Positions 785 to 52,527 of a stretch of 64,000 nt of DNA are shown here, piece by piece. The position numbers and the translations under genes were made by a program. The notes under the pieces were generated by a model that ran no database searches, was not told the origin of the DNA, and saw only the letters and a program-made list of their open reading frames with translations. The stretch spans positions 186,001-250,000 of the forward strand of contig RIBL01000001.1 of the NCBI GenBank assembly GCA_003762875.1. The letters are read 5' to 3'. Position 1 is the stretch's first letter; every line of letters starts with the position of its first letter. Origin of the DNA: Muribaculaceae bacterium Isolate-110 (HZI). Lineage in GTDB: Bacteria; Bacteroidota; Bacteroidia; Bacteroidales; Muribaculaceae.

Positions 785-894
785 GGTTATAAGGTTATGA
801 GTAGGGCTTTCTATTTCTTTTTAAGCTATTCCTTTTTTTGCTGTTCCTCTTTAGCTTATAAGGTTATGAGGCCAGGGCCTCATAACCTTATAAG
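785..894. repeat. Palindromic intergenic repeat (aaggttatgag family) between the thioredoxin and VKOR genes
   Basis: A perfect 19-bp inverted repeat with a 2-nt spacer lies at 855-873 / 876-894, starting nine bases past the thioredoxin stop. The arm word ttataaggttatgag also occurs as a direct copy at 787-801. A small ttgccc/gggcaa hairpin sits just outside at about 773-784. The stem could end or attenuate transcription from the thioredoxin gene. No clear T-run follows in the direction of transcription, so simple rho-independent termination is uncertain. The same word builds inverted repeats at 20635-20796 and 52473-52527. Confidence 0.75.
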
Positions 895-4294: not shown

Positions 4295-5563
4295 ATGTAT
4301 CTGCAACATTTTTTTCAGTCACTGTGGGCGATTATCAATGAGATGTCGCCTTATATACTTCTCGGATTTCTTATAGCCGGACTGCTCCACGTGTTTGTCA
4401 AGCCATCGGCCATGTCGCGTCATCTGGCTGGCGGCGGACTGAAACCTGTGGTCAAGGCCGCGCTTTTCGGCATACCGCTCCCGCTGTGTTCGTGTGGAGT
4501 GCTGCCTACTGCTGTGGCCTTGCGCCGTCAGGGTGCGTCAAAGGGCGCCACAACCTCTTTTCTCATAGCAACGCCCCAGACCGGTGTCGACTCCATAGCC
4601 GCCACATATTCGCTGCTCGGGCTCCCGTTTGCCATACTGCGCCCGGTGGCCGCGCTTGCGGGTGCCGCGCTCGGAGGTGCTGCTGTCGACCGTTTTGCCT
4701 CACGTCCCGACGGAGAGACCGATACCGTGGCGGGTGACTCGTGCGGTGTGCCCGCCGATGACGAATATCGCGGCATGAGCTTTGGCCGCAAGCTCGTCGA
4801 GGCCGTGCGCTACGGTCTTGTCGACATGGTGGCGAGCGTGGGCAAATGGCTCGTGATAGGGCTCATAGTCGCCGCGCTTATCACAGTGCTCGTGCCCGAC
4901 CAGCTCTTTGTAAGCCTTAGCCGTTATCCGCTCCTGGCAATGGGAGTGATGATACTCGTGGCGGTGCCGATGTATGTATGTGCCACCGGCTCGATACCCA
5001 TCGCCCTGTCGCTTATGCTCAAGGGCCTGAGTCCCGGAGTGGCCTTTGTGCTGCTCATGGCCGGCCCGGCAGCCAATTTTGCCTCAGTGATGATACTCTC
5101 GCGCACCATGGGTCGGCGTGCCACACTGATATATGTCGGCTCGGTAGTGGTCACGGCCATAGGATTCGGTCTGCTTGTCGATCTGCTCTTGCCGGCCTCG
5201 TGGTTTACCCCTGCGTCGTTTACGGCAATGGCCTGTCACGGTCACGCCCATGTGTCGGTTTTCGCCACTCTCTGCTCGGTGGTGCTCGCAGGTCTGCTAA
5301 TCTATACGGCCATAAAATTTCGTGGCCACACTCACTCGCATAATCACACTAATAATACAACTGAAATGGAACGTAAATATCGTATCGCGGGCATGTCGTG
5401 CCCTCATTGCCAGGCTACCGTCACCAAGGCTCTCTTTGCTCTTGACGGTGCCGAGTCGGTAACAGTAGATCTCTCGTCGGGCATAGCCACCGTGCGTGGT
5501 GAAGTGTCGCCCGAGGCTGTCAACGCCGCAGTCTATGCCGCCGGCTTCACAGTCGAGAAGTAG
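4295..5563 (+). CDS. SO_0444/ArsP-like Cu/Zn efflux permease with C-terminal HMA domain
   Basis: This is a 422-residue inner-membrane permease of the DUF318/ArsP superfamily, in the layout usually annotated as SO_0444-family Cu/Zn efflux transporter. Eight or more hydrophobic segments are visible. The family's CSC motif is at Cys65-Ser-Cys67 (PLPLCSCGVLP), and a second conserved loop reads MAGPAANFAS. A His-rich linker (GHTHSHNH, about 344-353) leads into a heavy-metal-associated domain from Met358, with GMSCPHC (Cys369 and Cys372) and the usual 65-residue length. The HMA domain probably delivers or senses the metal. Metal specificity cannot be read from the sequence. The ATG at 5366 could start a separate HMA protein, but it lies in frame and a fusion is the simplest reading. 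The gene ends flush against the 68-bp inverted repeat. Confidence 0.87.
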   Translation: MYLQHFFQSLWAIINEMSPYILLGFLIAGLLHVFVKPSAMSRHLAGGGLKPVVKAALFGIPLPLCSCGVLPTAVALRRQGASKGATTSFLIATPQTGVDSIAATYSLLGLPFAILRPVAALAGAALGGAAVDRFASRPDGETDTVAGDSCGVPADDEYRGMSFGRKLVEAVRYGLVDMVASVGKWLVIGLIVAALITVLVPDQLFVSLSRYPLLAMGVMILVAVPMYVCATGSIPIALSLMLKGLSPGVAFVLLMAGPAANFASVMILSRTMGRRATLIYVGSVVVTAIGFGLLVDLLLPASWFTPASFTAMACHGHAHVSVFATLCSVVLAGLLIYTAIKFRGHTHSHNHTNNTTEMERKYRIAGMSCPHCQATVTKALFALDGAESVTVDLSSGIATVRGEVSPEAVNAAVYAAGFTVEK

Positions 5564-5739
5564 GAGATACAAAAGTCTCAAAAAGACAAAAGAAACATAA
5601 GATTTCAGGTTAAAGACAGGAGTACAGGAGTAATTTTGACATTGCAAAAGCTTGTTCTGCAAAAAAATTTAACTCCTGTACTCCTGTCTTTAACCTGAAA
5701 TCTTATGTTTCTTTTGTCTTTTTGAGACTTTTGTATCTC
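5564..5739. repeat. Perfect 68-bp inverted repeat between convergent stop codons
   Basis: The left arm 5564-5631 and right arm 5672-5739 are exact reverse complements over 68 bases, with a 40-nt loop (5632-5671). The left arm starts on the base after the permease TAG. The right arm ends inside the TGA of the convergent DUF4252 gene. So the whole junction is one hairpin, readable as a bidirectional terminator from both sides. The arms hold short repeated words (aggagtacaggagt; aaaag...aaaagacaaaag). It is far longer than a typical intrinsic terminator stem and would give a long RNA duplex, a possible RNase III substrate. Confidence 0.95.
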
Positions 5740-6196
5740 AGTTTTGTTTGTTGTTCATGACCATTGACCGGATATCGGCCGGGGTGATCGCTCCGGAGAT
5801 GAGTATTACGGTCAGGCCTGCTTTTTCCGACACTCTCACCACATATTCAGTCTTTCCTCCGTCGAGCGATTTCATGAATATGTCTACATTTTCGCCGTTG
5901 TCGGTCACTTTCATGAGCTGTTCGTAACCCTTGCCGAGCGATAGGGGCTCTTTACGGAGCGTGGGGAGGAGTTTATTGTTTTCGCAAGTGAGTATGCGTA
6001 TATTGTCGAGTTTTGACGCTATCGGACCGATGTTCACTCCGTTGGTTTTCATGTCGGGCATCATGCTGAGCATGGCTTTGGAAATGTAGACTGTAGTGAC
6101 ACCTTCGGTGTCGGCATAACGGTCAAAAATAGTCTGGGCGTATGATGCGATGGTGCATATGAGGGCGAGAATGGCGGTGATATAGAAGCGTTTCAT
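5738..6196 (-). CDS. DUF4252 family secreted protein
   Basis: This 152-residue exported protein begins with a signal peptide (MKRFYITAILALICTIASYA, cleavage near 20). A DUF4252-type domain follows (FDRYADTEGVTTVYISKAML; later NIRILTCENN and VRVSEKAGLTVILISG). The family is found in Bacteroidota and has no established biochemical activity. The ATG at 6196 is chosen because the signal peptide starts there; the open frame further upstream runs through the anti-sigma gene. It is the last gene of a four-gene - strand unit, DUF4252 lipoprotein - ECF sigma - anti-sigma - DUF4252. This suggests a role in the envelope signal read by the sigma pair, but that is inference. Confidence 0.85.
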   Translation of the reverse strand: MKRFYITAILALICTIASYAQTIFDRYADTEGVTTVYISKAMLSMMPDMKTNGVNIGPIASKLDNIRILTCENNKLLPTLRKEPLSLGKGYEQLMKVTDNGENVDIFMKSLDGGKTEYVVRVSEKAGLTVILISGAITPADIRSMVMNNKQN

Positions 6197-19713: not shown

Positions 19714-19794
19714 CGAGTCTATAGTTTAAAGTTTAGGGATTAGACCGGCCTTCGTGACCAGGATCTAATCCCTAAACTTTAAACTCTAAACTCG
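19714..19794. repeat. 31-bp inverted repeat of tttaaagtttag words at a convergent junction
   Basis: The arms 19714-19744 and 19764-19794 are reverse complements with two mismatches and enclose a 19-nt loop. The arms consist of the repeated words gtttaaagtttag and ggattaga. The left arm starts seven bases after the frameshifted gene; the right arm runs over the TAG of the convergent small gene. It probably works as a bidirectional terminator. Confidence 0.85.
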
Positions 19795-20634: not shown

Positions 20635-20796
20635 TACTTTGCTTCGCAAAAGGTTATGAGTTTATGAGATTATAAGGTTATGTAGTTGCGAGGTTGTAAG
20701 AAAAAATTCTGATTTTGCAAAGCAAAATCAGAATTTTCAATAAAGTGAACGAATAACTCCGCAGGCTAACCTCATAACCTTTTGCGAAACAAAGTA
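20635..20796. repeat. Nested inverted repeats after lptD (aaggttatgag family)
   Basis: The outer arms 20635-20660 and 20771-20796 are reverse complements over 26 bases with one mismatch, and contain aaaaggttatgag. An inner, perfect 16-bp hairpin lies at 20703-20718 / 20722-20737 with a 3-nt loop. Between them the word recurs in direct orientation (gagattataaggttatg). The right arm ends two bases from the lptD stop codon. It probably ends lptD transcription and protects the 3' end. Confidence 0.85.
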
Positions 20797-27493: not shown

Positions 27494-27529
27494 GCACCCC
27501 AAAAGTTAGACTAAAAACTTTTGGGGTGC
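27494..27529. terminator. 14-bp hairpin at the convergent junction before tamL; resembles an IS terminal repeat
   Basis: The arms gcaccccaaaagtt (27494-27507) and its complement (27516-27529) form a perfect 14-bp stem with an 8-nt loop, 41 bp past the tamL stop on the - strand. It can serve as a bidirectional terminator. The arm sequence also resembles terminal repeats of IS3/IS150-like elements in Bacteroidota (from memory), so it may be an insertion-sequence remnant. No transposase is present. Confidence 0.65.
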
Positions 27530-52472: not shown

Positions 52473-52527
52473 ATGAGGCTATAAGGTCATGGAATGATTG
52501 CGCATCCTCTTAACCTTATAGCCTCAT
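52473..52527 (-). terminator. 15-bp inverted repeat after ackA (ataaggt family)
   Basis: The arms atgaggctataaggt (52473-52487) and complement (52513-52527) are perfect over 15 bp, with a 25-nt loop. It lies 46 bp past the ackA stop. The word is close to ttataaggttatgag in the repeats at 785-894 and 20635-20796. Confidence 0.8.

Follow-up and report, generated by a model that had tools for sequence, protein, structure and literature searches.

The systems closest to the hairpin described here are the IVS of 23S rRNA, the REP/REPIN palindromes with their RAYT genes, the BrickBuilt elements of Porphyromonas gingivalis, the Foldback/Galileo elements of Drosophila, and the STRR repeats of cyanobacteria. 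RAYT genes carry REP palindromes at their flanks, P. gingivalis belongs to the Bacteroidales, and the STRR are heptanucleotide repeats, i.e., short degenerate tandem words dispersed between genes. According to excerpts of the respective sources, RNase III excises the IVS of Coxiella, whose stem measures 28 bp (PMC4990558), the ends of BrickBuilt match those of the IS5 family (PMC4596501), and the inverted repeats of Galileo hold transposase-binding sites (PMC3688188).

Our hairpin lies in a 64 kb stretch of the Isolate-110 genome (G000:C1:186001-250000; "the window" always means this whole stretch), a 3.42 Mb draft of 100 contigs. The genus is probably Duncaniella: downstream of its ArsP gene, G003 of the same genus matches a Duncaniella muris DSM 103720 record without a difference over 300 nt. 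We conclude that the hairpin is probably a non-autonomous copy, without a gene, of a mobile inverted-repeat element, and that it now probably serves as the 3′ end of both adjoining genes as well. An earlier note on this DNA was right about the excess over a terminator, the arm copying, and the word repeats, but it missed the dispersed family with gene-carrying copies. Given that family, the local gene pair does not explain the hairpin.

The hairpin and its parts

The perfect inverted repeat of 68 bp that the earlier note had reported, running from stop codon to stop codon, is confirmed. Positions 5564-5631 and 5672-5739 pair at 68/68 bases around a 40-nt loop, the left arm begins one base past the TAG of the ArsP_1-HMA gene (4295-5563), and the right arm ends two bases into the stop codon of the minus-strand DUF4252 gene (5738-6196). 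Pairing stops at the arm ends, where the next outward bases are G/A and the next inward bases A/A. Two further claims also hold: the arms are far longer than a terminator requires, and they contain repeated short words (ACAGGAGT is present twice), as do word hairpins elsewhere in the window. The hairpin consists of two modules, with a copy of B nested inside the arms of A (Table 1). In the left-hand gene product, a heavy-metal (HMA) domain is fused to the C-terminus of an ArsP_1 permease.

Table 1. Parts of the hairpin, its flanking genes, and other word hairpins (window coordinates)
Feature	Position	Strand	Remark
Flanking gene: ArsP_1 permease with C-terminal HMA domain	4295..5563	+	
Outer module A, left arm (GAGATACAAAAG-TCTCAAAAAG-ACAAAAG-AAACATAAG-ATTT)	5564..5605	+	Module recurs in the Isolate-110 genome; frames a GxxExxY gene
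Linker A-B, left	5606..5614	+	Pairs with 5689-5697
Inner module B, left arm (GACAGGAGT ACAGGAGT)	5615..5631	+	Imperfect B arms frame a broken GxxExxY gene in G002
40-nt loop	5632..5671	.	Common to sister copy L007 (G000:C1:275365-275482), with few differences
Inner module B, right arm	5672..5688	-	
Linker, right	5689..5697	-	
Outer module A, right arm	5698..5739	-	Ends within the DUF4252 stop codon
Flanking gene: DUF4252 protein	5738..6196	-	
Hairpin of another word family (GGTTATGAGG)	855..894	.	Words are those in the arms of a four-helix-bundle gene, G000:C25:210392-210709
Hairpin with AGTTTAAAGTTTA words	19714..19794	.	Resembles the arms of a broken four-helix-bundle gene, G000:C14:228235-228548
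Hairpin with GGTTATGA words	20635..20796	.	An IVP-gene arm match falls here (G000:C1:206649-206682)
Hairpin with ATGAGGCTATAAGGT arms, similar words	52473..52527	.	

Among the 11 inverted repeats in the window (at least 18 nt, within 300 nt) this is the longest, and the second-longest has 37 nt at 89%. The RNA fold computed for 5555-5750 has -121.1 kcal/mol vs a shuffle mean of -38.5 (sd 4.4, z -18.6), and the G+C content of the arm is 34% vs 51% for the window. It is the sole hairpin between the two convergent genes, and a U-rich stretch lies downstream of it on the + strand.

The exact arm length of 68 nt comes from a draft assembly and should be treated with caution. The hairpin is internal to a 358 kb contig, and on a 2.27 Mb contig of the relative G002 there is a member of this hairpin family whose arm measures 40 nt. 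This type of structure is therefore not peculiar to the Isolate-110 assembly.

Two other identities were tried and rejected. Around the hairpin, 19 Rfam matches were found at E<=1, none of which reached the gathering score; most were microRNA models, drawn by the long hairpin. For a phage origin, a 29-nt exact pattern was absent from viral_contigs, which is a weak test. As a side observation, a hairpin GCACCCCAAAAGTT...AACTTTTGGGGTGC occurs at window positions 27494-27529 and at L141:1092-1140, and it is common to G002, where it sits within an A hairpin. Our guess is that it looks like the joined ends of an insertion sequence.

A dispersed family with genes between its arms

A 221-nt query gave 127 alignments in the Isolate-110 genome at E<=10, a figure that counts both strands and most loci more than once. 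We scanned the fetched stretches for module A (GAGATACAAAAG-TTTCAAAAG-GACATAAG-AAACATAAG-TTTTT plus word-order variants) and module B (GACAGGAGTACAGGAGT), which gave 40 loci, or 39 distinct ones after removing one double, some of them weak. L129 and L134 matched in the alignment search and were below the threshold of the module scan. At 17 of the 39 loci, A forms a left arm and an inverted right arm, both pointing inward; two loci have B only, and 20 are without an opposed A pair. Since four elements (L012, L014, L130, and L133) sit no more than ~200 nt from where a contig ends, the assembly may break at elements, and the true copy number may be higher.

Some loci have further structure. At L013:1002-1226 (G000:C18:29495-29719) two A hairpins are nested, the inner one with a different word order, which looks like an element inserted into an element. 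A separate inverted repeat at L025:1733-2031 (G000:C16), rich in G+C, has arms of 82 nt around a loop of 135 nt. At L126:1291-1993 (near G000:C25:191010), an inverted copy of the first coding part of an IS200-type transposase gene follows beyond the gene end, with 81-nt arms 541 nt apart.

Some members of the family carry a gene. The single PF13366 match in Isolate-110 is a GxxExxY gene (TIGR04256, 2.8e-37), and it lies between A arms, one ending 22 nt upstream of its start and the inverted one 5 nt past its stop. Its ortholog in G002 (63% in a 139-aa tblastx piece, 68% over the alignment) also lies between A arms at a different genomic site: the G002 element is beside what we take to be recQ/recJ-like genes, and that of Isolate-110 is beside a presumed GH10-like gene. 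A second GxxExxY gene in G002 is broken into two pieces, with a B-like arm on each side (21 nt, two mismatches, 477 nt apart, score 15). Both modules of the window hairpin thus have a gene-bearing counterpart.

Three of the 27 genus genomes (Isolate-110 itself, G002, and G026) match module A at E<=1e-4, and two of these three have an A-armed GxxExxY gene. The third, G026, matches A and yet gave no hit for GxxExxY, an argument against strict coupling of module and gene. The GxxExxY genes of G007 and G012 have different words in their arms, and neither genome matches A.

To our knowledge, neither GxxExxY genes nor IVP genes (PF05635; four-helix bundle) have a known function. Across 57 GxxExxY sequences, G22, G24, E27, Y30, D66, E76, K78, Q90, and Y94, among others, are invariant. 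The 125-aa protein is predicted to have a PD-(D/E)XK nuclease fold: the best match of its structural model (pLDDT 93.5) is chain SSO0001 of 4ic1 (E 1.3e-4), which we take to be Cas4, followed by MGME1 and lambda-type exonucleases. These matches are moderate (TM-score 0.59 of query at best). A sequence search of the PDB gave no convincing relative (one match, E 0.33), and PADLOC gave no matches.

We scored the arms of GxxExxY and IVP genes by the best inverted repeat between the gene flanks, taken from 250 nt outside to 45 nt inside. In the genus, 20 of 22 scored genes lie between word-array arms (score at least 15), vs 0/199 control ORFs, whose maximum was 14. These 22 of 23 loci were scored automatically (18) or with hand-set coordinates (4); L190, whose flank was too short, was left out. 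Also outside this test were L176, L177, L192-L199, and L204-L207 (long frames or under the cut-off), along with G004:C61:11648 and other matches without a locus.

Many of the genus genes have a word of their own, e.g., TTAGTTT, AGTATAG, GTTTAAA, GGTTATGA, or CGCAGAGG. Two such arms were searched for in the genomes, and both times the words go with the gene. For the GGTTATGA arm of one Isolate-110 IVP gene, 34 matches were found in that genome. The AGTATAG arm of the G007 IVP gene has 41 matches in G007 and 26 in G026, whose IVP gene has similar words, with one in Isolate-110 and none in G002 or G006. Runs of AGTATAG, mostly in one direction, also form long tandem arrays at G007:C8:70268-70510, G007:C11:7948-8147, and G007:C29:8411-8543.

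GxxExxY genes occur in 99/198 sampled phylum genomes and IVP genes in 63/99 (both at E<=1e-20). The word-array layout is weaker in the phylum than in the genus, but it is present at about half of the genes. At a score of at least 13, arms were found at 16/29 GxxExxY genes, 14/29 IVP genes, and 7/63 neighbouring ORFs; at a score of at least 15 the counts were 11/29, 7/29, and 2/63. Among held-out phylum genes, a set without an ORF control, 32/59 had arms at a score of at least 13. L236, L287, and L305, for which no ORF was picked, were left out of both sets.

Arm words differ between the two gene families, held-out loci included. An inward word C[AG]nA[AG]AG (e.g., CACAGAG or CGCAAAG) is in both arms at 18/33 GxxExxY loci vs 2/47 IVP loci (33 of 34 and 47 of 48 loci scored), counts for which the word had been picked after viewing those same arms; a control set of just five ORFs was set aside. 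We then used a held-out set of 40 further GxxExxY genes from other genomes (39 scored) and 20 further IVP genes, which gave 12/39 vs 0/20 (Fisher p 0.005). The controls on the held-out GxxExxY genes were 0/39 for displaced flanks (285-430 nt) and 4/39 for the outward direction. The window arm fits the strict word once and the looser CA[ATG]AAG three times, and module A fits the looser word. One IVP protein (L169) matches Avd of diversity-generating retroelements (PHROGs phrog_3206, 1.2e-7), whereas PHROGs yielded no match for GxxExxY.

These arms bear on the strongest competing explanation, which is that the copies are ordinary miniature elements (MITE or REP type) for which an unrelated transposase provides the movement, with the GxxExxY gene as a passenger between the arms. 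We consider this unlikely. Size, A+T richness, intergenic position, and copy number all fit a MITE as described in an excerpt of PMC4596501, and the Isolate-110 genome does have one Y1 transposase, of the IS200/IS605 type. However, this lone Y1 match is without A arms (best A score 22 in its 3.3 kb locus), and we therefore rejected IS200/RAYT as the mover. In genus and phylum alike, GxxExxY and IVP genes repeatedly have word-array arms whose words differ by family, which is not expected of a chance passenger, and imperfect B arms likewise frame a GxxExxY gene.

Gene ends and the likeness of the arms

Both neighbouring genes were called at 34 of the 39 loci, of which 14 are convergent, 18 tandem, and 2 divergent. 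Convergent positions are in excess when compared with gene pairs in 400 kb of G002 (36/281; Fisher p 1.4e-4), less strongly so when compared with the share of intergenic bases (23%; p 0.014), and divergent gaps are avoided (p 8e-4). At 25 loci the left gene points at the element, and 12 of these elements start within 10 nt of the gene end. The neighbour caller missed the DUF4252 gene, so the right gap of the window copy is -2 and not the called 501.

A preference for convergent junctions is what one would look for in a bidirectional terminator with a long stem under selection, the family having spread by gene conversion between terminators. The window hairpin is also the only one in its convergent junction, and the U-rich stretch follows it on the + strand. 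We nevertheless rate this explanation as less probable still, since 20/39 loci have no opposed A pair, the gene-bearing copies are left unexplained, and the corresponding gene ends of relatives bear different hairpins, which are shorter, or lack one. A plain terminator was rejected: an intrinsic terminator has a short G+C-rich stem, a loop of 3-8, and a T run, the loop here is 40 nt, and a scan restricted to loops of 3-8 found no simple terminator pattern at the hairpin.

The gene ends of relatives were compared in two ways. The first was across the ArsP junction, a comparison that the earlier note had proposed. The ArsP gene is present in 22/27 genus genomes, and of 104 ArsP loci in total (24 from the genus, Isolate-110 included, and 80 named), 103 were scorable downstream. 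Only the Isolate-110 locus has A downstream of ArsP, so the window hairpin is specific to its own lineage. At the other loci the inverted repeat scores 9 to 30 or is lacking, and one (L103) has a B-like score of 27, near noise.

The second used 11 gene ends with copies in Isolate-110 for which a counterpart, identified through a single flanking gene, lies in the part of G002 that was examined. Neither an A nor a B module is present at these 11 G002 gene ends (best A score 23, threshold 38). They include what we take, from translations, to be leuS-like and dnaX-like genes. Eight of the 11 were read, and these have an unrelated hairpin or none, with no clean empty site among them; one of the eight, L134, has only a short A match in Isolate-110.

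The earlier note had also named copying of one arm onto the other as a possibility, and this is supported. Across the 17 two-arm A loci, arms differ by 4.8% within a locus vs 14.4% between loci, a likeness reached by 0/20000 permutations. The arms are perfect at 6/17 of these loci and differ by 3 to 7 positions in four (the first copy of L008, L023, L025, and L137). A left arm has its own right arm as nearest relative at 10/17 loci with ties, or 8/17 strictly.

L007, a copy at another convergent junction, has a loop in common with the window copy and gives the clearest example. A 10-nt segment of the window copy is absent from both of its arms, which also share an additional A and a T to C substitution relative to that copy; the unmirrored differences are one T to C and one 1-nt difference. 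Outside the paired stretch, its right A arm is absent or beyond recognition. The same 10-nt change is unlikely to have occurred twice independently, so either one arm served as the template for the other or the two arms originated together. The mirrored 10-nt indel, 1-nt indel, and substitution, together with the 17 two-arm copies, thus support arms that appear to be kept alike by copying of one arm onto the other.

A local palindrome, made without mobility by fold-back copying (template switching) at replication or by an assembly error that mirrored one arm, would fit the mirrored indels and the four elements near contig ends, but it is very improbable given modules at 39 loci and in other assemblies and the locus-specific arm variants elsewhere.

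The mobile-element reading and known systems

Our preferred reading, that the window hairpin is a gene-less copy of a mobile element, suggests the following mechanism. A full element would consist of a tandem-word arm, a small GxxExxY gene, and a mirrored arm. The gene product, with its predicted PD-(D/E)XK nuclease fold, probably recognises the words, either as DNA or as a transcribed hairpin, and may help to cut and move gene-bearing and gene-less copies. Copies would then settle or survive at gene 3′ ends. The window copy, with B inside A, spans its whole junction; it is thus the only hairpin there and probably provides both mRNAs with their 3′ end. Arm likeness could arise when the element is made, by copying one arm onto the other, or later via fold-back repair.

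Mobilisation by GxxExxY is something we infer, as is the route of movement: the mover may work on hairpins at the DNA level, or it may use RNA that RNase III has cut, as happens with IVS elements. No transposition, target-site duplication, or clean empty site was observed. The same layout surrounds the unrelated IVP genes, so the GxxExxY protein need not be the mover. With two unrelated proteins in one layout, host enzymes could do the moving.

More tentatively, these elements may form an undescribed mobile class, in which a nuclease (GxxExxY, with a Cas4-like fold) or an Avd/S23-like four-helix bundle is framed by inverted arrays of its own words. In Bacteroidota, such a class would also disperse hairpins lacking a gene, which come to occupy the 3′ ends of genes, and copying from arm to arm would keep the two arms alike. 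We searched the literature on GxxExxY, IVP/S23, IVS, palindromes, STRR, foldback, and Muribaculaceae repeats, and among the matches listed (titles and abstract starts, from few subscription journals and no preprints) none joins these genes to word-array hairpins. The excerpt of PMC8934634 mentions GxxExxY a single time, next to a CRISPR-like reverse transcriptase; for IVP genes, PMC3936711 reports occurrence within cas loci, and PMC10910872 gives the name in the legend of a figure.

Gene-family-specific arm words, together with gene-less hairpins of the same words, give both gene families a testable role as mobile elements. This reading would also explain odd long hairpins at the gene ends of gut bacteria, and the hairpin copies are natural material for reading arm-to-arm copying from sequence.

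Among known systems, the STRR of cyanobacteria are alike in their short degenerate dispersed words. The IVS of 23S rRNA resemble our family in having a small gene between complementary arms, and in the genus, word-array arms flank the PF05635 genes. Unlike these IVS, A/B copies lie between protein genes, and many are gene-less: the window copy has no gene and sits between two protein genes, not in a 23S rRNA helix, others are beside called ORFs, and the gene-bearing A and B copies carry GxxExxY instead of S23p/IVP.

REP/REPIN elements with RAYT are likewise dispersed intergenic palindromes associated with a gene, as excerpts of PMC2817692 and PMC3116915 describe. RAYT is a Y1 tyrosine transposase, whereas the gene here has a predicted PD-(D/E)XK nuclease fold, the word-array arms reach 68 bp, and the sole Y1 match is of another type, as given above.

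By its terminal inverted repeats, many dispersed copies, and lack of a transposase gene, the family resembles a MITE (with 20/39 loci lacking an opposed A pair), and its ends are shared with a GxxExxY gene-bearing element that is itself without a known transposase. BrickBuilt, a MITE with an internal minisatellite, is also intergenic, with tandem words that fold into long stems (PMC4596501, excerpt). It differs in that no transposase with matching ends was found near A/B arms, which instead frame a gene with a predicted nuclease fold.

The Foldback/Galileo elements, in the excerpt of PMC3688188, likewise have long terminal inverted repeats with short tandem repeats. They differ in being eukaryotic, with a P-element-type transposase and much longer arms. 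The hairpin family shares with them long inverted repeats made of short tandem repeats, and its own-gene counterpart to the Foldback transposase would be GxxExxY, with its predicted nuclease fold.
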